From: a virus
Strand: one strand, 5' to 3'
Virus record (IMG/VR): IMGVR_UViG_3300042691_004428
Coordinates: 1 to 32,247 of that record
Length of the DNA stretch: 32,247 bases
The notes beneath the pieces were generated by a model. The model was not told the origin of the DNA. It was given only the letters and a program-made list of their open reading frames with translations, and made no database searches. Both the position numbers and the translations under genes were made by a program. Every line of letters begins with the position of its first letter. The stretch's first letter is position 1. Below are positions 2,666 through 15,398 of the stretch, piece by piece.

Positions 2666-2675
2666 GTATTTATGC
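2666..2675 (-). promoter_or_regulatory. Late-promoter-like box abutting the start of the 72-residue gene
   Basis: The minus strand reads GCATAAATAC, one base from the T4 TATAAATA consensus. It overlaps the portal stop codon. Only 6 bases separate it from ATG 2659. In T4 late promoters transcription begins about 6 bases after the box, so a transcript from here would start at or next to the start codon. Confidence 0.45.
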
Positions 2676-4427
2676 TCCGGGCGGTGTGCCACCAGGCTGT
2701 ACCGGAGGTGCTGGAGTTCCAATTGTACCTGGAGCAGGAGCACCAGGAACAACACCAGGCAATTCGCCTGTTGGCGCGGCCAGTTCCTGCCCGGTAGTGA
2801 TGTCAGTTTCCATGTCACCGGGCATTACGCCTACACTACGCAGATCTTGTCCGGCCAGTTCAGTGTCAGGCGCTGTGCCTTTTTCTTCGTTCCACAGCTC
2901 TTCGTTTTCGGCAATTTCTACGTCAGTCAAGCCCAAGAAGCGTTTCAGCAGGAATCGTTTACTTAGATAAGGCACTGCTTCTAGGCTGGTAAAACTGCCA
3001 ATTCTGGCAGTGTCTAACTCGGTCTGACGATAAGCAGCAAAGTTCTGCGGTGGATTGAATTCTATGTCAAACAGTCCTGAATCAATGTTAAACCCGCGCC
3101 AACGCAGGAACATCTTGAATTCACTGTCTAATTTTTGCACAATTAAACGTTGCAAACGTTCACAGTACTGGTTGAATCTGTATTCTTGAATCAATGCATT
3201 TCCCACACGACCGTCGTTCAAGGCACGATCGCTGTCGTCTGGACCAGTGGGCAGGTAGCTGCTAGGCACACGCAGACCACGCATCATTTTGTTATTGAAA
3301 TATTTTAGGTCGTCGATCTGTCCAAGATTTTCACCGCCGGGCAGTGTTTCAACCTTGCTGCCACGACCTTCAGCTGTCTGTGGGAAAAAGTAATCTTCGT
3401 TGATACTGAGTGGATTATAACTGGCGTCCATCATGTTGGTGCCACCACCAGTCACAGTTGGTATTCTACGCTGATGAATTTCGTTTTTCACACGCTCAAC
3501 AAAAGCCATGGCCAAGTGGCTAGGCATGTTGCCCACATCAATATAGAACACGCGACGCTCAGGCGCACGTTGCACACGATAGATCAATATAGCATCTTCC
3601 AGCAGCTCTTTCTGCTTGAATACCTTGTAGATCATTTCCAAGATACTCTGCCCAAATGGCCAGTAAACGTCTAGCCCTTCGCTCAGGCTCAGATGCACCA
3701 CGTGTTCGGCATCAATCACAGTTTCGTTCATGGCATTTTGAAAACGCCCTGTATTTGTTGGTGGTGCATTGGGCAGCGTGTAGTTGAACGGTGCCACGTA
3801 GCCTGCGCTAGGCGGATTGATCTGATAATCGCTGGTAGTTTTAGGAGCAATTGCTAGGTTTTGAAAGTTAGGATTGATGTCACGAATCACGTACTGTTCA
3901 GGACGCTTGCCTTCACTTTCGTTGACAATGACCTTGATTACTTTGGTCATGTCCACCCAGTACAGCTCAAAAGTTTCAGGATCACGTATGAAAACCTGAT
4001 CGCCGTACTTGACTGTGTTTCTAAAAATTCTAAAGATACGCTCGTCTAACTTGTTGAGCTTGACCCACTGTTTTAGCTGTGTTTCCAGAATTTTGATTTC
4101 GTTATCCGTGGGTTTGTCTTTGAAATCTAGCGAAAACGGAGTAGTGTTATTTTCATTGAACTGGGTGCTAAACTCGCTGATAATGTCCAAACAGGCATTG
4201 ATTTCCGAATCCATATCCATGTTTTCGTACTGATTATAACGTTCAATACGATTAGGATGTCCGCTGTAAACTTCGGGTAAACGGCTAGCATAGTTACGAT
4301 AGGCCATGTTGGCATGACTGTCGGCACCACCGGTGGCTCTGGGATAACCCGGTAGGCCATCAGCACCTCTGCCCGAAATAGGACTTAAACTACCATCTGC
4401 TACTTTGAAATATTTTTTCCAGCTCAT
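2670..4427 (-). CDS. gp20: Portal vertex protein, gp20
   Basis: A 585-residue portal protein of the T4 type, which forms the dodecameric ring at one capsid vertex through which DNA is packaged and to which the neck attaches. It is recognisable along its length: ENMDMDSEINACLDIISEFS near the N-terminus, the KYGDQVFIRDP region, the VVHLSLSEGLDVYWPFGQS stretch, the family hallmark LIYRVQRAPERRVFYIDVGN, and YLPTGPDDSDRALNDGRVGN. The C-terminal 80 residues are Pro/Gly-rich. T4 gp20 is 524 residues, so the excess lies in that tail. I chose ATG 4427 (MSWKKYFKV) over an in-frame TTG at 4445 because the family begins near this W-K-K-F sequence. The gene follows the tape measure stop by 14 bases. Confidence 0.97.
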   Translation of the reverse strand: MSWKKYFKVADGSLSPISGRGADGLPGYPRATGGADSHANMAYRNYASRLPEVYSGHPNRIERYNQYENMDMDSEINACLDIISEFSTQFNENNTTPFSLDFKDKPTDNEIKILETQLKQWVKLNKLDERIFRIFRNTVKYGDQVFIRDPETFELYWVDMTKVIKVIVNESEGKRPEQYVIRDINPNFQNLAIAPKTTSDYQINPPSAGYVAPFNYTLPNAPPTNTGRFQNAMNETVIDAEHVVHLSLSEGLDVYWPFGQSILEMIYKVFKQKELLEDAILIYRVQRAPERRVFYIDVGNMPSHLAMAFVERVKNEIHQRRIPTVTGGGTNMMDASYNPLSINEDYFFPQTAEGRGSKVETLPGGENLGQIDDLKYFNNKMMRGLRVPSSYLPTGPDDSDRALNDGRVGNALIQEYRFNQYCERLQRLIVQKLDSEFKMFLRWRGFNIDSGLFDIEFNPPQNFAAYRQTELDTARIGSFTSLEAVPYLSKRFLLKRFLGLTDVEIAENEELWNEEKGTAPDTELAGQDLRSVGVMPGDMETDITTGQELAAPTGELPGVVPGAPAPGTIGTPAPPVQPGGTPPGA

Positions 4428-4431
4428 AAGT

Positions 4432-4441
4432 GTATTTAAGC
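4432..4441 (-). promoter_or_regulatory. Late-promoter-like box abutting the gp20 start
   Basis: The minus strand reads GCTTAAATAC, sharing GC-x-TAAATACAC with the box before the 72-residue gene. It lies only 4 bases before ATG 4427 in the 14-base gap after the tape measure stop. If used, it would give a nearly leaderless transcript; gp20 may otherwise be read from the promoter upstream of the tape measure gene. Confidence 0.35.
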
Positions 4442-7414
4442 TCAAGCCCTAGATACTTGCAGTATCTTTTCCGAAGTTTGATTCTGTCTACGCATGAGAT
4501 CTATTAGATCATCCAGGCTCTGTTTGAGTCCAACCATTTCTACCGGAATCACTCGTCCGCCACTCAATGGCACTACAGCTTCTGGACCAGCTTCGCCGGC
4601 TATGCTGGGACCATCTGTGATGCCACCTTCGGCCATTTTAGGTTTGTCAAGACCGTCTTTGATGTTTTTTAATTCTTGCAGCACCTGTTCGTTGATCACT
4701 GCCAAACGTGGACCACCACCAGCGCCAGTCTGAAAGTCGCCCATGCCGCTGGCTATACGATCTGTCTGTCTGCGTATGTAATCTGTGCTCAGCACCTCCA
4801 TACGGCTTAGTGGATCTTCCAAGGCAGCGCCTACATTTTTGCCCACGTTAGCTGCGGCTATGTTTTGTAGGCGTATCTCTTCGGTTATTCTAGTGTACTG
4901 TTCACGAAGTCGTTGGCTTTCAGGACTGTCCATGCCCTTGGCATCAACTCCAATGTAATTTTCTGCGCCCCACACCTTGCCCTCGGGCGTAGTCAACATC
5001 ATGCGCACAAAGTCATAGAAATCACGTTTTTCACCTGGCTTCAGAGCATATCTAGGATCTGTTCCGTTCTTGGTCATTTCCTGCACAGCCATGGTCAACT
5101 TGTGAGCAATGGATCCACTTTCTATAGCCCAGCCATACTGACTAGATGGTTTAAGCCCAGGAATCAATTCCAATTGCTGTTGAATCAGATCGCCGTGCGC
5201 ACGTAGCAGTTGATCTCTAGTGGGTGCCTGATAGTTGGCGTTGGTAATTTCTACAGGTATGGTACGACCATCAGGCAGTGGCACCACGGCTTCTGGTCCG
5301 GCTTCACCGGCTATGCTTATACCGTCAGTGATACCACCTTTGGCCATGGCCTGAACGTGAAAGTGTGGTGCCGTGGACTTGCTGCTAGGATTGTTGTACT
5401 CGTCAATGACCATGCGAGCACCCATGCTACCAATAAAGTTGGCAATTTCTTTGCCTTGTTCAGGAGTAGGTCTGTAGTTCAGTACAAAGTCAAAGGCGTT
5501 GCCCTGCGTGTGTTGGCTGCTAGGTGCTTTTTCTTGATGGAACTTGTCATTGAAACCAGAAAAGTAGGCAAAACCTTTTACACCTTCTTGTACACGTTTA
5601 GCCAGCTCAAGTGTTTTATTTTGTATGACCGAACCGTCGGCCTGTACATCACCTTGTTTCAGTATCAGCCCCATGTCTTTGAGCTGCTGTGTGCTGGTCT
5701 GCTTGCCTGGTCCAAGCGGTGCCGGAGGTGCACCACTGCCACGTCCGCCCATGCCCGGGCTAGGCGGGGCTGCTGGTTTGCCTTCAGCGGCCTGTTTCTG
5801 ACCAGGTGAAGGAGCCATACCTAGCTTTTCGCCCAGTTTGTTCATGGTAGACGCTAGCCCTGGCGCTAGGCTTGTGACTGCACTTTCTAATCCAGCAGCA
5901 GCCTTGTCTAATAGATTACCTTCAGCACCAGCTGCATCGTCTAAGGCTTTGGCCGCAGCGTTTTGTGCTTTGGCCAGTGCCAATGCTGCCTGTGTAGCTG
6001 GCAGTACACCTTTTTGTATAAAGCTCTGTAGTGAGTCTCTAGCTGCACGTTGTTCACGTCTTAGATCTACTTGCGCTTCAACTAATGGATCTGTAGCTTT
6101 AACCTGCCCGTTGATCTGCTTTTCAGCGTCTTTGACTGCTTGATTCAAATCAGTCTGCGCTCTTACACCCAGGTTGCTAAGTTCAGCATAGTCACCAATA
6201 GCATCCATAGCACCGGCTTTGGCCAGTGGTCTAAAGTTTTCCGCTGTTTGCCCTGCTGCTTGATATACTTGTTGTAAGGCCTGAGTCGCTTGAATGTTAC
6301 CTGCGGTCAACTGCGATAGTGTCTGAGTGCCTTTACCTTGAGTTGACAGATAGAATTTTTGTGCAGCTTCACTGCTGATATACCCTGCACTGGCATCTCG
6401 AAAGCCTTGTGCTAACTGCGGTGCTTGTTTGGCCAATACAGCATTGGCACGTTCTAGTTGATCGGCAGCGGCTATCTGACGTTTGTCGCCGCTGGCTCGC
6501 ATTTCATCTAACTTGGCACGGAATCTTTGCTCACTGCGAGCACGATCCATTTCTGCTTCCATGTCCTTGCGCTGTATACCAGTGACCTTGGACAAGGCAT
6601 CCATTTCTTTTAGATATGCAGCGGCACTTTGACTTAGCTGCTCGTTGCTCATCTTTTGAGCGCGACCAATCTGTGTCTGTAGAGCTACGTAACCAGCAAT
6701 GCCTTCATTGATGTCTTTTATGCTGAAGCCCATCAATTCTAGATTGCGACCTAGCTGAGAACGTACAATACCTTTGCTGATGTCAGCTAATGCGTTACGA
6801 CCTTGTCCTACTGTACCAGCAAACTGTGCTAGTGTCTTGCTGTTATTATTGATTAATTCTACAAATTGATCTAGCTCTTCGATGCCCATGCCAAACTTCT
6901 GCATGTCTCTGAATATGCCCTGCATGCCATCAGAAGCAGCAGCGCCACTGGCGGCTAGACCTTGATAACTTTTGTAAAGTGCATCACTCTGCTTCATTGC
7001 AGCTTCGGCACTCTTACTCATTAAATTGATAGCAGTAGCAGCTACTTTGGCTGCTATACCCAGACCTGGAATTAACAAAATAATCAGATTCAGAGCATCG
7101 GCCATGGCGCGAATAGATTCATTGAACACAGCCGCGCCCTGCTTGCCTTCGTACATGGCAGCAGTGTTACTGGTAATGGCCTTTTCAAAGATGTCAAATA
7201 GACGGCCACCGGCTTCCAATCGAGCCATGGCTTTTTCAACTTCCTCGCTGTGTTCTCTTAGAGCCTTGCGATTTGCTGCTATTTCTTTTGGAGTAAGTTC
7301 TGCTTCTTTCTGCAATTTAAGCAGATTGTTGGCAGTTTTGTTTGAGACCGCGCCGAGCTTTTCGTACTCCTCGCGCATCTTCTCCATTAACTCTTCGAAT
7401 TCTTGTTGGGTCAT
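4442..7414 (-). CDS. Tape-measure-like tail protein with an M15-type peptidase domain
   Basis: A 990-residue protein, alanine-rich and helical over residues 1-530, with a hydrophobic stretch around 104-131 (including LIILLIPGLGIAAKVAA). A Pro/Gly-rich linker covers about 535-575. Residues about 575-690 look like a zinc D,L/D,D-peptidase of family M15: SQHTQGNAFD (His635, Asp642), an acidic pair in VIDEYN near 671, and PHFHVQ (His686). Two copies of a GGITDG-x-SIAGEAGPEAVV segment follow, at about 693-713 and 930-950; such GEAGPEA segments are typical of tail tape measure C-termini. The likely role is length determination of the tail tube plus cell-wall cutting at injection. It could fill the role of T4 gp29 (590 residues), with which I see no clear sequence match. 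No good ribosome binding site precedes ATG 7414. Confidence 0.8.
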   Translation of the reverse strand: MTQQEFEELMEKMREEYEKLGAVSNKTANNLLKLQKEAELTPKEIAANRKALREHSEEVEKAMARLEAGGRLFDIFEKAITSNTAAMYEGKQGAAVFNESIRAMADALNLIILLIPGLGIAAKVAATAINLMSKSAEAAMKQSDALYKSYQGLAASGAAASDGMQGIFRDMQKFGMGIEELDQFVELINNNSKTLAQFAGTVGQGRNALADISKGIVRSQLGRNLELMGFSIKDINEGIAGYVALQTQIGRAQKMSNEQLSQSAAAYLKEMDALSKVTGIQRKDMEAEMDRARSEQRFRAKLDEMRASGDKRQIAAADQLERANAVLAKQAPQLAQGFRDASAGYISSEAAQKFYLSTQGKGTQTLSQLTAGNIQATQALQQVYQAAGQTAENFRPLAKAGAMDAIGDYAELSNLGVRAQTDLNQAVKDAEKQINGQVKATDPLVEAQVDLRREQRAARDSLQSFIQKGVLPATQAALALAKAQNAAAKALDDAAGAEGNLLDKAAAGLESAVTSLAPGLASTMNKLGEKLGMAPSPGQKQAAEGKPAAPPSPGMGGRGSGAPPAPLGPGKQTSTQQLKDMGLILKQGDVQADGSVIQNKTLELAKRVQEGVKGFAYFSGFNDKFHQEKAPSSQHTQGNAFDFVLNYRPTPEQGKEIANFIGSMGARMVIDEYNNPSSKSTAPHFHVQAMAKGGITDGISIAGEAGPEAVVPLPDGRTIPVEITNANYQAPTRDQLLRAHGDLIQQQLELIPGLKPSSQYGWAIESGSIAHKLTMAVQEMTKNGTDPRYALKPGEKRDFYDFVRMMLTTPEGKVWGAENYIGVDAKGMDSPESQRLREQYTRITEEIRLQNIAAANVGKNVGAALEDPLSRMEVLSTDYIRRQTDRIASGMGDFQTGAGGGPRLAVINEQVLQELKNIKDGLDKPKMAEGGITDGPSIAGEAGPEAVVPLSGGRVIPVEMVGLKQSLDDLIDLMRRQNQTSEKILQVSRA

Positions 7415-7459: not shown

Positions 7460-8305
7460 ATGTCAGAACCATCCAAAAACCCACTTAGCGGGTATTTCCG
7501 CCAACCTGCAATCTATGTTAAATTGCCCAGTGACGGAAAATTCTATCCCACTGGCTCATTGGACATGCCGCCAAATCATGAACTACCGGTGTATCCAATG
7601 ACTGCGGTAGATGAAATTACCTATCGTACACCAGATGCACTGTTTAACGGCACTGCTGTTACCAGCGTGATTCAAAGCTGTGTGCCCAACATCAAAGACG
7701 CCTGGGTCATTCCCAGCGTAGATCTTGATCTGTTACTGGTAGCTATACGTATTGCCAGTTTTGGACACAGCATGGAAATTGGTGCTGTCTGTCCAGCCTG
7801 CCAACACGAAAACGAGTACGGCGTTGATCTTAGAACCATCATCGACAAACTGCGCTGCCCAGATTACAGCGAAGCACTGGACCAAGGTGATCTAAAGATC
7901 TATTTTAGACCGTTAGACTATCGTCAGATGCAGGAAATCAGTAACTTGCAGTTTGAAGAACAACGACTGCTCAGAGCTATTCCTGATTCTGATCTTGACG
8001 AAAGAGAAAAACTACAGCGTCTTAATGATGCATTCAAGCAGCTCACCGAACTGACAATTACCAGCATGGCACGCAGTATTGCGGCTGTGGCCACACCAAC
8101 AGCACAGGTAACTGAAATGGAAATGATACGCGAGTGGCTGGCCAACTGTGATCGCGAAGTGTTCAACACAGTGAGAGATTACATAGGAACCATGCGCAAA
8201 AACAGCGAACTACAGCCGTTGAATCTGCGCTGCCGCGACTGTAACCACGACTACACACAACCGTTTACTCTGGATCAAGCAAGTTTTTTCGGCAACGCCT
8301 CCTGA
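7460..8305 (+). CDS. gp26: Baseplate hub / tail assembly protein, gp26-like
   Basis: A 281-residue protein of the T4-like baseplate family that includes gp26. Family features are the N-terminal IYVKLPSDGKFYP sequence, the PMTAVDEI-x-YRTPDAL-x-NG segment, and a later acidic helical region. There are four cysteines in two CxxC pairs, CPACQHENEY (Cys111, Cys114) and CRDCNHDYTQPF (Cys258, Cys261), suggesting a zinc-binding fold. In T4, gp26 is needed for baseplate hub assembly. The frame ends at TGA 8303-8305, only 4 codons after a T TTT TTC heptamer, and the gp51-like frame continues in the -1 register. It may therefore also be the N-terminal part of a longer fusion. It starts a plus-strand unit divergent from the tape measure gene, the same neighbourhood in which lambda-type tail chaperones lie. 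Confidence 0.85.
   Translation: MSEPSKNPLSGYFRQPAIYVKLPSDGKFYPTGSLDMPPNHELPVYPMTAVDEITYRTPDALFNGTAVTSVIQSCVPNIKDAWVIPSVDLDLLLVAIRIASFGHSMEIGAVCPACQHENEYGVDLRTIIDKLRCPDYSEALDQGDLKIYFRPLDYRQMQEISNLQFEEQRLLRAIPDSDLDEREKLQRLNDAFKQLTELTITSMARSIAAVATPTAQVTEMEMIREWLANCDREVFNTVRDYIGTMRKNSELQPLNLRCRDCNHDYTQPFTLDQASFFGNAS
8284..8290 (+). promoter_or_regulatory. Probable -1 ribosomal frameshift site (T TTT TTC)
   Basis: In the gp26-like frame the codons read AGT TTT TTC GGC, so bases 8284-8290 form a canonical X XXY YYZ slippery heptamer. Slipping one base back resumes at CGG 8290 and leads without a stop through RQRLLTKNPEEIAV into the gp51-like protein. The in-frame stop follows 12 bases after the heptamer. 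I see no strong downstream hairpin (only GGC/GCC around 8291-8299) and no upstream Shine-Dalgarno stimulator. Confidence 0.6.
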
Positions 8306-8331
8306 CCAAGAACCCTGAAGAAATTGCGGTC

Positions 8332-8520
8332 ATGATTGACGGCATGGAAAAGGAGGCCGATACAATCAGAGAAGAAATTCTAAGACTGTGTTGGCACATG
8401 CGCGGTGGTATAAACTATGAGCAGGCCATGATGTTGAGTTGGAATGAGCGCAAGGCAATCAATGCCATAGTTAAAGAAAACATGGAAACAACTAAGAAAA
8501 CTGGACTACCTTATTTCTAA
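8332..8520 (+). CDS. gp51: gp51-like hub assembly protein; probably the C-terminal part of a -1 frameshift fusion
   Basis: Read from ATG 8332 this is a 62-residue helical protein with the sequence MRGGINYEQAMMLSWNERKA and the ending METTKKTGLPYF. It resembles the short proteins annotated as gp51, baseplate hub assembly catalyst, in aquatic T4-like phages; T4 gp51 is much longer (about 250 residues). The ATG has no convincing ribosome binding site. The same frame stays open and protein-like upstream (LLTKNPEEIAVMIDGM) back to 8290, where it meets the slippery heptamer at the end of the gp26-like gene. A frameshifted product would be about 353 residues. The stop overlaps the next start as TAATG. 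Independent initiation at 8332 or ATG 8344 cannot be excluded. Confidence 0.7.
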   Translation: MIDGMEKEADTIREEILRLCWHMRGGINYEQAMMLSWNERKAINAIVKENMETTKKTGLPYF

Positions 8521-11013: not shown

Positions 11014-11519
11014 AAATCCTTGACTTGATCAGCGTTTAGTTCAAAGAACAGGTCTAGTTCCATAATCATCCAATGACCGTTAAGTCCACTGGTGTAATTA
11101 AAGTGTCTAGTAAAAATCAATTGGCCAGTGTTAGGCTGTGCATGTACAGCAACATATTGACCTTTACGATTGAACTTCATAAAAATAATATTAAAGTCAC
11201 CGTCGTCGGCCACGTCCATACACTGTGCAATCCAACTGTCTAGTATTTTTACTGTGCCGGAGAATAGTTGATGAAACGGAAAGTCTTTGTAGCTTTTACA
11301 TTCGGCATTGAGTCTTGCGAAACTTTCGCCCGGCACTATGTCGCCTTTGAAACTGCGAATTTGACCTTCGTGTAACATTTCTTTGCGATGACTGTTCTTG
11401 CCGCCTACATAGGCGCCAGAGCCCGGCGCACGTATAAACTTCTCTCCATATAGCGCAGTTAGATAGTCAGCTATCTGACGTTCAAAACTGTTGCCTTTTT
11501 GTTTGCTAGGGCTGGGCAT
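11001..11519 (-). CDS. PD-(D/E)XK nuclease, possible Holliday junction resolvase
   Basis: A 172-residue protein. KQKGNSFERQIADYL (Glu13), FKGDIV (Asp60) and NAECKSY (Glu73, Lys75) give the E...GD...ExK layout of archaeal Hjc-like and related PD-(D/E)XK nucleases. The segment RAPGSGAYVGGKN between them fits the DNA-contacting Ser/Gly loop of that family. T4 resolves branched DNA with the unrelated endonuclease VII (gp49), so this could be its functional replacement in recombination with gp46/47. A restriction-like or repair role is also possible. ATG 11519 shares a base with the previous stop (TGATG); an in-frame TTG at 11522 adds one residue and is less likely. Confidence 0.72.
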   Translation of the reverse strand: MPSPSKQKGNSFERQIADYLTALYGEKFIRAPGSGAYVGGKNSHRKEMLHEGQIRSFKGDIVPGESFARLNAECKSYKDFPFHQLFSGTVKILDSWIAQCMDVADDGDFNIIFMKFNRKGQYVAVHAQPNTGQLIFTRHFNYTSGLNGHWMIMELDLFFELNADQVKDLCAR

Positions 11520-13117
11520 CAATGATCCTTTTCATGCCAACCAATTATAGGTATTGTTCTACGAGTGCGCTGCGACTGTCCTTTGAACTCGCTGAGAATT
11601 TTTTTAATAATGGTCAGCTCTTCTTTAACCTTGGGCTGTATGTAGCCAAGTTTACAGCTGATTTCGTGAATCTCCAATCGACGACGCATGCGTTCTTCCA
11701 AGGTCAGTGTAGGATTGTCCAGGTTTATCCAGTTACGACCGTAGACCCAGTTACGGTCACTGTCCACTAAGTGACTGAGATTCAAATCGGGATCCTGCTG
11801 AACAATACGCAGATCGGTAGTGGCCTCGGCCAATGGACTGCCAATGTCAAGACTGCCGGTGAATCCCCAGCGTACCATCCAGATAGTACCAGACAGCATG
11901 TATTTTCTGTATTTGTATAAAAACTCTATGTTCTTTTGATGATCTTCCAGAGTCTCTGTTGGATATCCAACAAACATCAATATCATGTTGGTATGACCGT
12001 ACTTGGCACTCATGGCCAAGTGAAAGTCAATGTCGTCATTACTGATACCTTTGCGCATGTGCTCACGCACACGTTCACTGTAACTTTCAACACCGCAGAA
12101 AAATGTAAAGCGACCAACTTCGCCCATTAGACGCCAACTTTCTTCGGACATGTCTTTTTTGCGTCGTATAACACCTAGACCCAAGATCTTTAGACCAGTG
12201 AACTCAGGATCCGCAGCTCGATGTTCTAACAGTCTACGATTCATTCTATCCCATTGACGTATGTTACCGTTCATGGTGCTGTCGCTGATTTGAAACAGTT
12301 TGACACCCCACTTTTTGTACATCATGTACATTTCGTCGGCTACCTTGACACCGTCTCTGTAGGCAAACTTGGGCCAGCGCCAGGGCACATCACAGAAAGT
12401 GCATTTTCTAAAACAGCCACGACTGGTGTTTACATATACACCAATACCGCCGGTGGGATAGTAGATGGTAGGCGGATTGTCTTCGTAGTTGGGAAACGGG
12501 TGCTCGTCTAGATTTCTAATCTGTACGTAATCTCTGTTGTCTATTCCAGGAAAGTCATAGTTGTCAGCCAAGAATTCTTTCCAGCTATCCTCAGCGTCGC
12601 CCATGATAAAATGATCTACCAGTCCAAGATTACGCAAGTATTCGCCAAACATGCTGGTAGTTTTGACCTGCTGTCGGCCTCGGTCATCGATAAAACTTTC
12701 AGTGTCGTAAGGAGTAGTCAATCCGCTGCCGCCAACCACTGTGATTCCTTTCCAGGGCAAACGTTTGAGTGTGCGGAAAAATACCAGTGTGCTTCGTGTG
12801 CTGTAGTTGCTGAACACACTGGCTCCAATGATATCAAAATTTTCAGGTAAAATTAGATCTCTTAGAAACTTTTCAAACAGCGCACTAATTTCTTTTTCAG
12901 TCTGCACATCCTGTTCGGTCAACGCATCTGTTTTGAAAAACATATCGTAACGCCAGAAGGTTTCGGCATTAACACGCTCATACAACCACAGGTTAAAATC
13001 AAACACACGGCACTGATGTCCTTGTTGTAACGCAATTGATTTTAGTATAGCAGGACCAGCAGGTGGCCGTTCTACTTCCTGTACTGGCAATATAATCAGT
13101 GCTACATTATGTGCCAT
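11519..13117 (-). CDS. Radical SAM protein with an N-terminal B12-binding-type domain
   Basis: A 532-residue protein. Residues about 1-190 resemble the Rossmann-like cobalamin-binding domain that often precedes radical SAM cores (GPAILKSIALQQGH, IIGASVFSNYSTRS, ITVVGGSGLT), but the DxHxxG cobalamin-ligand motif is absent. The radical SAM core carries RGCFRKCTFC (Cys235, Cys239, Cys242), which would bind the 4Fe-4S cluster and SAM, followed by DSTMNGN, GVESYSERVREHMRKG and a helical C-terminus. Relatives of this architecture perform methylations, methylthiolations and ring rearrangements; the substrate cannot be predicted here. It overlaps the preceding 191-residue gene by 11 bases. T4 has no counterpart, so this is accessory metabolism carried in an early operon. 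Confidence 0.88.
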   Translation of the reverse strand: MAHNVALIILPVQEVERPPAGPAILKSIALQQGHQCRVFDFNLWLYERVNAETFWRYDMFFKTDALTEQDVQTEKEISALFEKFLRDLILPENFDIIGASVFSNYSTRSTLVFFRTLKRLPWKGITVVGGSGLTTPYDTESFIDDRGRQQVKTTSMFGEYLRNLGLVDHFIMGDAEDSWKEFLADNYDFPGIDNRDYVQIRNLDEHPFPNYEDNPPTIYYPTGGIGVYVNTSRGCFRKCTFCDVPWRWPKFAYRDGVKVADEMYMMYKKWGVKLFQISDSTMNGNIRQWDRMNRRLLEHRAADPEFTGLKILGLGVIRRKKDMSEESWRLMGEVGRFTFFCGVESYSERVREHMRKGISNDDIDFHLAMSAKYGHTNMILMFVGYPTETLEDHQKNIEFLYKYRKYMLSGTIWMVRWGFTGSLDIGSPLAEATTDLRIVQQDPDLNLSHLVDSDRNWVYGRNWINLDNPTLTLEERMRRRLEIHEISCKLGYIQPKVKEELTIIKKILSEFKGQSQRTRRTIPIIGWHEKDH

Positions 13118-13682
13118 TGATCAACTCCTTGATCTCGGCCACCAGTTCAGGATACAGTTCTGGACTGCCTACAAATTTCTCCCAGCGATGTAGATCAATG
13201 TCCATGTTTTCCAAGTGCATACGACTGGTGCGCTCTATACGATACCAGTCCCAAAGATCTTTGGGAAATTCTGCAAAGATAAATTCGCCAGGAAAGTGCC
13301 AGCGTCTTAGACTGTAAATGCGTTCTGGCAGTTCGATGTGCTGACGTTTGTAGCTGGCAAAGTATCTGGGCACGTAATAACCATCATCAACGAACCAACT
13401 TTCTAACAATATGTCGTCAAATCTTACATCGTGTATTTCTATCCACATGTCTGCAACAATTTTGCCTTGGCTGTCAGTTTTAGTATGGTAGTCGCGTTTG
13501 TTGTAAAAGTCCAGGCTAAGCCGATTGGCATCTAGTTGATTGACCGAAAAGTCTAACCATTGCTGCGATCCAGTCACAGTGAAGTCACCAACATAGTGTT
13601 GATTGTGTTTACAGTATACTCTAGGCGATTCGTCGGTACTATAACCGGTCAAGCATACACTGACTTTTAGTTGGTCAACCAC
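13107..13682 (-). CDS. Unknown protein, possible beta-sandwich (carbohydrate-binding-like) domain
   Basis: A 191-residue protein with no assigned family. The first 110 residues look all-beta, with alternating strands including DFTVTGSQQWLDFSVNQL, LSLDFYNKRDYHTKTDSQGK and IVADMWIEIHDVRFDDILLE. The NK...D-x-x-T...D-x-x-G-K-I pattern reminds me of carbohydrate-binding-module-like domains. The rest is rich in aromatic and charged residues (WHFPGEFIFAEFPKDLWDWY). I take GTG 13682, 11 bases after an AAGGAG ribosome binding site and overlapping the preceding stop by 16 bases; no in-frame ATG is near. It sits between two radical SAM genes and overlaps both, so it may be their partner or bring them to a substrate. 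That is inference. Confidence 0.6.
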   Translation of the reverse strand: MVDQLKVSVCLTGYSTDESPRVYCKHNQHYVGDFTVTGSQQWLDFSVNQLDANRLSLDFYNKRDYHTKTDSQGKIVADMWIEIHDVRFDDILLESWFVDDGYYVPRYFASYKRQHIELPERIYSLRRWHFPGEFIFAEFPKDLWDWYRIERTSRMHLENMDIDLHRWEKFVGSPELYPELVAEIKELINGT

Positions 13683-14764
13683 TGTACTGCATACTCCTTG
13701 TTTACTAGATCTCTACTGCATTTTTGCGAACACTCTACCCAGGTGTGCTCTGTGTCTTTCCAACCACAGGACAATTTTGACCATAGCTGATCTGTGGTAA
13801 TCTCTTCTAGACTGCGTGTGTGTAAATTCAATCTATCTCGATATCGCTGATGAAAACTGTCTTGGTATTTTATAGTTTTGGTGCCATGAGTCAATGTTGT
13901 ATACGGAAAACTGACCCAACTGCAAGGATGCAGCACACCGTCAGCACTGACATACAACCCGCGATTGCCAATTTCGCACATAGGAACTATAGGATCTTGA
14001 CCTTTACTGTCAATTATATCTTGATATCTAGCTAGATTATACGCTAGATAGTCGCCGTTGTCTTGCCTACGATGACTCAATGGTTTATAGATTCTGTGAT
14101 ATCGATGTGTGTCACTGACAAATTCTGGCCTTGGTTCCAAAGGATCCTGTTCGGCTTGATACGCTTGACCGTATTTACTGCCAAATTTGGTACTATGTGT
14201 CAGCTGTAAACCGTCGCAGCCCTGCTCACGTGCCAAATGTTCTATCAGGTCAAGGTGATCCTGATTGAAGCTGAACACGATAGTGGCCCAATTGATAAAG
14301 GCCTGACTTTCGCGACACATTGTCTGCATGCCTTGCATGATACTGTCCCAGTCGCTGTTACGGCGATATAGGTTATTGGTTTGTTGATCGTATCCGTCGA
14401 TGCTGAAGTTGACTGTGTCTCTGTCATTGAGAGTGAGAGCCAGTCGTTGCCACCATGCCAGTTTACGATAACTGCCGTTGGTTACTATGAACAGATGTAC
14501 ATCGGGATTGGTTTCTTTTAGATACTCCACTATGTCGTGAAACTGGCTGGCATAGATTGGATCGCCAACGTCGCCACACAATGTGATACGTTGAACTTGA
14601 CTGCGTAAAAAGTTCTGCGGAAAAAGTCGTTTAACAAAATCCAAGTCTAGTTCTTTGTTGATCCAGGGTGTGTCAGGCAATTCTGTGCGCGGACAACGGG
14701 GACATTGCAGTGTACACTTGCCACTGATTTCCAAATGCCAATGATAGTACTGCCAGTTAATCAT
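13667..14764 (-). CDS. Radical SAM protein with a SPASM/Twitch-like C-terminus
   Basis: A 365-residue protein. HLEISGKCTLQCPRCPR holds the CxxxCxxC cluster site (Cys17, Cys21, Cys24). The core continues with ITLCGDVGDPIYASQFHDIV, LFIVTNGSYRK and VNFSIDGYDQQTNNLYRRN, all typical of AdoMet radical enzymes. The C-terminal third has further cysteines (263, 281, 333, 345, 349), including VSADGVLHPCSWVSF and CSQKC, consistent with an auxiliary Fe-S cluster domain. SPASM enzymes modify peptides, proteins or carbohydrates; the substrate is unknown. I prefer ATG 14764, with GGAGA about 9 bases upstream and an 8-base overlap (ATGATTAA) with the dehydrogenase stop, over the TTG at 14800 with a 36-base extension. 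It is coupled to the dehydrogenase and the 191-residue gene. Confidence 0.88.
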   Translation of the reverse strand: MINWQYYHWHLEISGKCTLQCPRCPRTELPDTPWINKELDLDFVKRLFPQNFLRSQVQRITLCGDVGDPIYASQFHDIVEYLKETNPDVHLFIVTNGSYRKLAWWQRLALTLNDRDTVNFSIDGYDQQTNNLYRRNSDWDSIMQGMQTMCRESQAFINWATIVFSFNQDHLDLIEHLAREQGCDGLQLTHSTKFGSKYGQAYQAEQDPLEPRPEFVSDTHRYHRIYKPLSHRRQDNGDYLAYNLARYQDIIDSKGQDPIVPMCEIGNRGLYVSADGVLHPCSWVSFPYTTLTHGTKTIKYQDSFHQRYRDRLNLHTRSLEEITTDQLWSKLSCGWKDTEHTWVECSQKCSRDLVNKEYAVQWLTN

Positions 14765-15398
14765 GTGCCAGTCTCCAAAAGCTGCAATCAGTATCCGCAA
14801 CTGCTGCCAGTATACCTGTGGCAGCTTGTTCTGCAGTCAAACAGGGTTGATTGTAAAAATCAGGCTGGAATAGATCTGGTCGATCACGAAAACGATTGGC
14901 GTTGAAATTAGTGCGTGTAAGTCCAAGACAGACTTCTAGTATACGAGCATCAGGATAATCGCGAGCCAGTAGCTCGCCAAATGAACTCAATGCACGTTTA
15001 GTTAGACTGTAGGTTAGATCGTGTCCAGGATAGGCCTGATTGTTAGTGCTGGTAATATTTACCACACAGGCCCGTGGGTCGTTGGCCAGCAACTTTTGTA
15101 CCAGCAGCATGGGTGCTAGTAAATTGCAATTTACAATATCAATGACACTGTCGGCATCGTGTTTATCAAATGGTTGTTTGCCGTTGACATCGTGTGCCGC
15201 ACAGTTGATTAGACAATCAATCCCAGTAGGCATTTGATAGTTCTTGACAAACAAAGGAAAATCCAAGTCAAGTTCGGCGCGACTTGGAGCATGGTGTTGA
15301 ATACCTAGACCTGTCAACAACAAGCTGATCATTTGTCCCACACCACTGCTGGCACCGGTTAAAAATATATTTTTATACGGTATCTGTATCGGTGGCAT
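14757..15398 (-). CDS. Short-chain dehydrogenase/reductase
   Basis: A 213-residue SDR-family oxidoreductase. FLTGASSGVGQ (residues 12-22) is the TGxxxGxG nucleotide-binding loop, LINCAAHD is the NxA(A/G) element, and NITSTNNQAYPGHDLTYSLTK gives the catalytic Ser117, Tyr130 and Lys134. The arginine after the second strand (PSRAELD) hints at NADP(H) rather than NAD(H). It is somewhat shorter than the usual 250 residues, with a reduced substrate-binding loop. The substrate is unknown. It overlaps gp46 by 26 bases and the downstream radical SAM gene by 8. Coupling to radical SAM enzymes suggests a shared biosynthetic or modification pathway. Confidence 0.9.
   Translation of the reverse strand: MPPIQIPYKNIFLTGASSGVGQMISLLLTGLGIQHHAPSRAELDLDFPLFVKNYQMPTGIDCLINCAAHDVNGKQPFDKHDADSVIDIVNCNLLAPMLLVQKLLANDPRACVVNITSTNNQAYPGHDLTYSLTKRALSSFGELLARDYPDARILEVCLGLTRTNFNANRFRDRPDLFQPDFYNQPCLTAEQAATGILAAVADTDCSFWRLAHD

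Follow-up and report, generated by a model that had tools for sequence, protein, structure and literature searches.

The tail assembly chaperones (TACs) gpG and gpG-T of phage lambda are an N part and that same N part with a C part added, and the slip site that yields the longer form is G GGA AAG. This pair and other frameshifted TACs were reportedly described by Xu, Hendrix and Duda in 2004, and Vladimirov, Gautam and Davidson are said to have identified the TAC genes of T4-like phages in 2022 (Virology 566:9-15), arguing for a mechanism other than frameshifting. A 2016 review describes the G-T frameshift as widely conserved in long-tailed phages except T4 (PMC5009743), and T4 gp26 and gp51 have been counted among the chaperones of hub assembly (PMC3004832). 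A passage of PMC12846349 cites Vladimirov et al. for poly-T slip signals in the TAC-N genes of T4-like phages, and a passage of PMC10885494 cites them as a source for some T4-like phages having one gene for the short form and another for the fused long form; as represented in these passages, their work largely anticipates the idea that gp26 and gp51 form a pair of the G/G-T type. Here we describe a gp26-like gene with a slippery heptamer near its end in IMG/VR record IMGVR_UViG_3300042691_004428, of which the full stretch of 32,247 nucleotides is called the window. The locus is very probably a TAC pair of the lambda G/G-T type, with the gp26-like protein as TAC-N and the product of a -1 frameshift as TAC-NC. 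Frameshifted tail chaperones have long been known, and the window pair adds a member.

The slippery site and its conservation among relatives

The open reading frame (ORF) 7460-8305 ends in GCA AGT TTT TTC GGC AAC GCC TCC TGA, in which T TTT TTC stands in the register X XXY YYZ and four sense codons separate it from TGA 8303-8305; the original prediction, made from the letters of the window, had described this site (8284-8290) in the same terms. The encoded protein matches the PF12322 (T4_baseplate) profile with 62.9 bits against a cut-off of 24.5 bits (E = 4.4e-17) and phrog_150 with E = 3.2e-16, and a Pfam scan at E values up to 1 returned PF12322 as the sole match and no curated lambda-like TAC family. 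Its AlphaFold model (7460-8302; pLDDT 90) matched viral baseplate hub and assembly proteins in Foldseek, with a best E value of 5e-25. The Foldseek matches include proteins of 450-690 residues from the large phages Special G, phiEaH2 and RSF1, which suggests that the gp26 fold may be hidden inside larger proteins of other jumbo phages.

No stop interrupts the -1 frame between 8245 and TAA 8518-8520, and translation in this frame after the slip begins RQRLLTKNPEEIAVMIDGM. It had been proposed that reading would continue without a stop from CGG 8290 and that ATG 8332 lacks a ribosome binding site; both statements hold, the first as far as the TAA just given and the second in that no Shine-Dalgarno match of at least 4 nt was found for this ATG.

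Relatives of the locus were gathered by gp26 protein similarity alone, and conservation of the heptamer is therefore not built into the sampling. They number 186, comprising 80 close relatives from IMG/VR, 80 cyanophage-like loci and 26 jumbo-like loci (14 of RaK2 type and 12 of Atu_ph07/PA5oct type), with counts outside the close group covering loci that have a readable gene end. Seven further matches were set aside: L237 and L238, which belong to a branch with a +1 frame treated below; L239-L242, which are about 20% identical and lack the site; and the incomplete L245. In all 186 relatives T TTT TTC precedes the stop in register, and the -1 frame downstream encodes a homologous domain. The site is present in 80/80 close relatives, four codons before the stop in 73 and one codon before it in 7, and the -1 extension is homologous in all 80 as far as the contigs reach; the corresponding counts for the heptamer are 80/80 for the cyanophage type, 14/14 for the RaK2 type and 12/12 for the Atu_ph07/PA5oct type. 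Isolates with T TTT TTC include Phosso, Atu_ph07, SCTP-2, PBECO4, PA5oct, RaK2 and Vibrio 2.275.O, and XacN1 has the variant T TTT TTT. The 0-frame tail past the site varies (1, 3, 4, 6, 10 or 11 codons) and the site itself is constant, which is the outcome of the homologue comparison that had been proposed as a check on the frameshift.

The heptamer and the open -1 frame are thus more than chance. Homopolymer runs are common and metagenome contigs carry indel errors, so that a single contig might show a chance heptamer with a chance open frame, or a gene split by a sequencing indel, but the same site and frame recur in 186 other environmental contigs and also in the genomes of isolates from independent laboratories, which refutes this explanation and leaves its probability close to nil.

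Selection on the heptamer and on the -1 frame

Codon analysis covered 56 non-redundant close relatives and 80 conserved codon columns. These relatives share ancestry and the counts are not independent events, yet synonymous change among them is close to saturation (pS about 0.8). The two Phe codons of the heptamer are TTT TTC in 56/56 and are the sole columns among the 80 without any synonymous change; synonymous identity is 0.78 in the next-best column, 0.49 at the median and 0.52-0.68 in four other conserved Phe columns. The base that precedes TTT TTC is T in 56/56, supplied by AGT, AAT, ACT or CGT codons. Extension codons 5-13 follow the stop of the 0 frame and in almost every sequence come before any ATG; across them the ratio of nonsynonymous to synonymous change (pN/pS) is 0.59 in the -1 frame, and the other two frames give 0.94 and 1.33. 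Across codons 14-76 it is 0.33 in the -1 frame, compared with 1.12 and 1.44. The -1 frame is under protein-level selection from the slip onward, ahead of any ATG. The joining stretch upstream of any ATG had been taken for real protein, and the pN/pS values bear this out; a -1 frame unconserved upstream had been named as an outcome that would tell against the frameshift, and the frame proves to be conserved before any start codon.

These data also bear on translational coupling, in which reinitiation near the gp26 TGA would yield the C-domain alone, much like the short gp51 of cyanophages. Some relatives do have an ATG that overlaps or adjoins the gp26 stop (TAATG in PBECO4, ATGA in Phosso and Atu_ph07), an ATG falls within 12 codons in 77/80 loci of the cyanophage type, and the deposited annotations of several phages list the C-domain as its own gene. 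Coupling nevertheless leaves the invariant heptamer and its missing synonymous change unexplained, and in the close relatives the first 12 extension codons contain no ATG in 54/56 and none of ATG, GTG and TTG in 36/56, yet protein-level selection is seen there. No candidate start with a 4-nt Shine-Dalgarno match is present in 49/56 close relatives, and the PA5oct extension contains no ATG at all. The model of the window extension is helical (pLDDT 91), and its long helix begins upstream of the first ATG, again at odds with a separate start. We regard coupling as improbable.

Transcriptional slippage, by which some mRNAs would gain or lose a base on the T run and encode the same fusion, is less probable still, and we give it very little weight. 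The T run is six long here and seven or eight long in Cr30, phiM12 and HTVC008M, but six T are short for slippage by RNA polymerase. Moreover, T TTT TTC is fixed, its C holds the run at six, and re-pairing is possible at both sites, a pattern characteristic of slippage by tandem tRNAs; the register is kept in all groups. The coordinates of the proposed frameshift and of adjacent features are collected in Table 1.

Table 1. Features of the proposed frameshift locus and its neighbors in the window
Feature	Position	Strand	Basis
gp26-like gene, TAC-N, 281 aa, standard decoding; stop TGA 8303-8305	7460..8305	+	PF12322, phrog_150
Slippery heptamer T TTT TTC, in register	8284..8290	+	Codon reading; invariance among relatives
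-1 frame extension, TAC-C domain, 76 aa; stop TAA 8518-8520	8290..8520	+	-1 extensions of relatives, pN/pS, helical model
Predicted fusion TAC-NC, 353 aa	join(7460..8290,8290..8520)	+	-1 slip at heptamer
5' arm of 7-bp stem, possible stimulator	8297..8303	+	Minimum free energy fold; begins 6 nt past heptamer
3' arm of the same possible stem	8351..8357	+	Minimum free energy fold
First ATG of -1 extension (codon 15), unlikely independent start	8332..8334	+	No Shine-Dalgarno match
Probable tape measure protein, 990 aa, beside the pair	4442..7414	- (divergent)	Length, position, repeated GEAGPEAVVPL motif
T4-type portal protein gp20	2670..4445	-	PF07230, E 1e-102

Possible stimulatory elements

In the cyanophage group (L133-L212) an 11-bp stem-loop starts 5 nt past the heptamer, with 93.5% of cells paired. 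One of its pairs varies on both sides many times (UA 16, GC 10, AU 9), and the covariation score of the stem is 0.183 against 0.099 for shuffled alignments, and none of 500 shuffles reached it. GGAGG stands 10 nt upstream of the heptamer in 38/80 cyanophage-type loci; a GGAGG-like upstream stimulator is known from dnaX. The stem and GGAGG are likely frameshift stimulators, and since GGAGG also codes for conserved residues, protein constraint may account for it. Neither element is conserved in the group to which the window belongs.

Two stretches of that group stand out. Synonymous conservation is raised at -1 codons 3-4, CGC CTC (0.85 and 0.83), at window positions 8297-8303 and their counterparts in the close relatives (L053-L132), and it reaches 0.93 at TCT, -1 codon 9; no conserved stem accompanies these positions. 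These positions are possibly another downstream element of the frameshift signal.

Relation to gp26 and gp51 of T4, KVP40 and the cyanophages

T4 gp51 matches PF12322 at residues 1-201 (3.9e-52) and phrog_150 at residues 3-248, with the phrog_634 C-domain at residues 147-246; by these profile matches it is paralogous to gp26, with a C-domain added. The N-terminal family (PF12322, phrog_150) is common to T4 gp26, T4 gp51 and the window protein. In an alignment of predicted fusions with natural proteins, the gp51 proteins of T4, RB49 and 44RR are collinear with the frameshift products through the junction, where the aligned stretches read DFFRIMLGRYSLEEYYKENF in KVP40, SFFRISMAHEDLESYYKINF in P-SSM2 and SFFRQRLLTKNPEEIAVM in the window. 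A separate gp51 gene had been named as evidence that would speak against the frameshift; T4 gp51 is indeed separate, and it aligns across the junction as a fusion that is hard-wired. The C-domain of the window is about 17 residues longer than that of T4 gp51.

The arrangement of the genes differs among these phages. T4 genes 26 and 51 are divergent neighbors, and T4, RB49 and 44RR have two divergent genes and no slip site, whereas in the window a single gene carries a slip site. T4 gp26 has kept the Phe-Phe pair, but its codons there, TTC TTT, form no slippery sequence, and its -1 frame is not open. KVP40 (L251), also of the Straboviridae, has a single gp26 gene that ends GAT TTT TTC GTA TAA, with the gp51 C-domain in the -1 frame, and the combination of T TTT TTC with a gp51 C-domain in that frame also occurs in P-SSM2, S-PM2 and W-14. 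The cyanophages and KVP40 thus resemble the window in their heptamer, which lies one codon before the gp26 stop, in the frame of the C-domain, and in having a short "gp51" ORF. Cyanophage and marine vibriophage gp51 were described as lacking about the first 200 aa, with frameshifting unmentioned (Sullivan et al. 2010, PMC3037559); the truncated look of cyanophage gp51 follows if its C-domain is made by frameshifting from gp26.

In a FastTree phylogeny of the N domain (midpoint rooting, few sequences) gp26 and gp51 of T4, RB49 and 44RR group together, with KVP40 next. The simplest history would be an ancestral frameshift, after which the T4 lineage duplicated the gene and lost the slip site. 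Because KVP40 has a single gene and T4, RB49 and 44RR have the duplicated state, the switch to two genes would have occurred within the Straboviridae.

A sister branch with the C-domain in the +1 frame

Two distant PF12322 proteins, used as queries, brought up 80 loci of a sister branch (L256-L335, IMG/VR), to which L237 and L238 also belong. Here the site reads TTT TTT TGG in 74/80 and TTC TTT TGG in 6/80, the C-domain (GGWSF.EAYNLP...R.WF) lies in the +1 frame, which is open for at least 45 codons in 79/80, and the -1 frame is closed in 80/80. RM378 (L032) and Microcystis phage Mel-JY01 fit this pattern; in immuto the site is CTT TGG, and in SP-15, LIS04 and GXN1 a +1 extension follows GCC CGA, ACC CGA or CCC CGA (L336, L337 and L339-L341 are Mel-JY01, immuto, GXN1, LIS04 and SP-15). 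A search based on RM378 returned RM378 alone. A shift of +1 is preferred over -2, since TTC TTT TGG and CTT TGG permit re-pairing at +1 and not at -2, and the sister branch probably uses +1 programmed frameshifting for the same gene pair.

We think it reasonably likely that the long form of PF12322 proteins is made in three ways: by a -1 slip on T TTT TTC in the cyanophages, KVP40, the jumbo phages and the window; by a probable +1 slip, on TTT TGG, CTT TGG and, in phages of Gram-positive hosts, CCC CGA-like sites; and by gene duplication in T4, RB49 and 44RR.

Jumbo phage relatives

The nearest isolates are the RaK2-like phages, PA5oct, Atu_ph07/Phosso and SCTP-2, whose gp26 is about 30% identical to that of the window and which have the same heptamer and the same C-domain in the -1 frame. 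In RaK2, PA5oct, PBECO4, SCTP-2 and Phosso, as in the window, portal and tape-measure-like genes lie on the other side. These isolates differ from the window in their 0-frame tails, which range from 1 to 11 codons, and in annotation: no feature for the C-domain is given in the records of RaK2 and PA5oct (L009, about 4822-5040; L008, about 4831-5060), and only its last 40 codons are annotated in the Atu_ph07 record. Genome annotation overlooks the predicted fusion in jumbo phages. No published account was found that extends TAC frameshifting to jumbo phages resembling RaK2, PA5oct and Atu_ph07, and the word "frameshift" is absent from the papers on Atu_ph07, CBB and PA5oct.

Gene neighborhood and the proposed chaperone role

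The pair adjoins a probable tape measure gene, as gpG/gpG-T does in lambda, and its products would likewise be an N part and an N part with a C part; it differs from the lambda pair in its family (PF12322, with no lambda-type TAC match), in its slip site and in being divergent from the tape measure gene. A divergent tape measure gene beside the pair had been part of the original prediction; the position, length and motif of 4442-7414 agree with this assignment, and no curated tape measure family matched the protein. The GEAGPEAVVPL motif is matched by phrog_27648, a family of unknown function, and the RaK2 counterpart bears a tape measure note; homology between the window candidate and the neighboring gene of Phosso was not detectable. 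At about 5240-5560 on the minus strand the same gene encodes SQHTQGNAFDF...HFHVQ, which resembles a D-Ala-D-Ala (M15-type) peptidase motif.

Among distant PF12322 members, LIS04, SP-15 and immuto have the order tail sheath, tail tube, gp26-like gene, tape measure gene (in immuto the gene in second place, where the tube gene would stand, is annotated as a tail completion protein). This order is the classic place of G/G-T and supports a chaperone role. The virion mass spectrometry table of CBB (55 proteins) lists neither CBB_250, the gp26 homologue, nor CBB_249, a small ORF downstream, and the adjacent CBB_251 is represented by 29 peptides (PMC5259590); the record of the PA5oct gp26 homologue has no mass spectrometry note, whereas its neighbor carries one. 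Non-detection is weak evidence, and it fits an assembly factor that leaves the particle. Homology to T4 gp26/gp51, the distant gene order and the absence of the CBB homologue from virions together support the chaperone role that is proposed for the pair.

Several findings weigh against reading the locus as such a pair. RNAalifold gave no consensus structure for the window's group, and pairing was not in excess there, with a mean longest helix of 5.30 against 5.12 in shuffled sequences; a conserved downstream stem was rejected for this group on these two grounds, and the 7-bp stem of the window (GCCTCCT/AGGAGGC) stays a candidate only, for the same reasons. An upstream stimulator resembling a Shine-Dalgarno sequence is absent in 53/56. 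Fold searches of the PDB with the models of the gp26-like protein and of the extension gave nothing significant, and no solved structure is similar to either. The pair and the probable tape measure gene run divergently, a departure from the usual tube-G-T-tape order. The sequence-level link between the window C-domain and T4 gp51 is weak: no phrog_634 match was found for the window C-domain (8290-8517), and hhalign against the gp51 C-domain gave a probability of 30 and E = 5.5e-4 over 34 columns. The earlier label "gp51-like" therefore applies to the C-terminal domain of T4 gp51 only, T4 gp51 itself being a gp26 paralogue plus that domain, and even there the resemblance is slight.

For the window locus we infer the occurrence of the frameshift, its efficiency and the chaperone action of the products. 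If the locus is a G/G-T-type pair, most ribosomes would read the gp26-like gene through to TGA and make TAC-N (281 aa), and some would pause at T TTT TTC, where both Phe tRNAs would slip back one base; translation in the -1 frame would then give TAC-NC (353 aa), longer by a helical domain at the C terminus. If the products act as in lambda, the commoner N part would serve as a coat on the tape measure protein and the rarer NC form would recruit subunits of the tail tube, and neither would stay in the virion.

Elsewhere in the window, ORFs 11519-13117 and 13667-14800 (minus strand) have the cysteine motifs GCFRKCTFCDVP and GKCTLQCPRC and look like radical SAM enzymes, in a region of phage structural and recombination genes.

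Implications

The jumbo phages and large freshwater phages would join those predicted to make tail chaperones by frameshifting, and the "missing" or misannotated gene of genomes of the RaK2, PA5oct and Atu_ph07 types would be the end of a predicted fusion protein. T4 gp26/gp51 would be treated as a derived, duplicated state. If the three routes to the long form are real, PF12322 would be a tidy natural set of recoding switches that act on a single protein pair, and its -1, probable +1 and duplicated versions would provide a setting for testing whether a fixed short-to-long ratio is needed.
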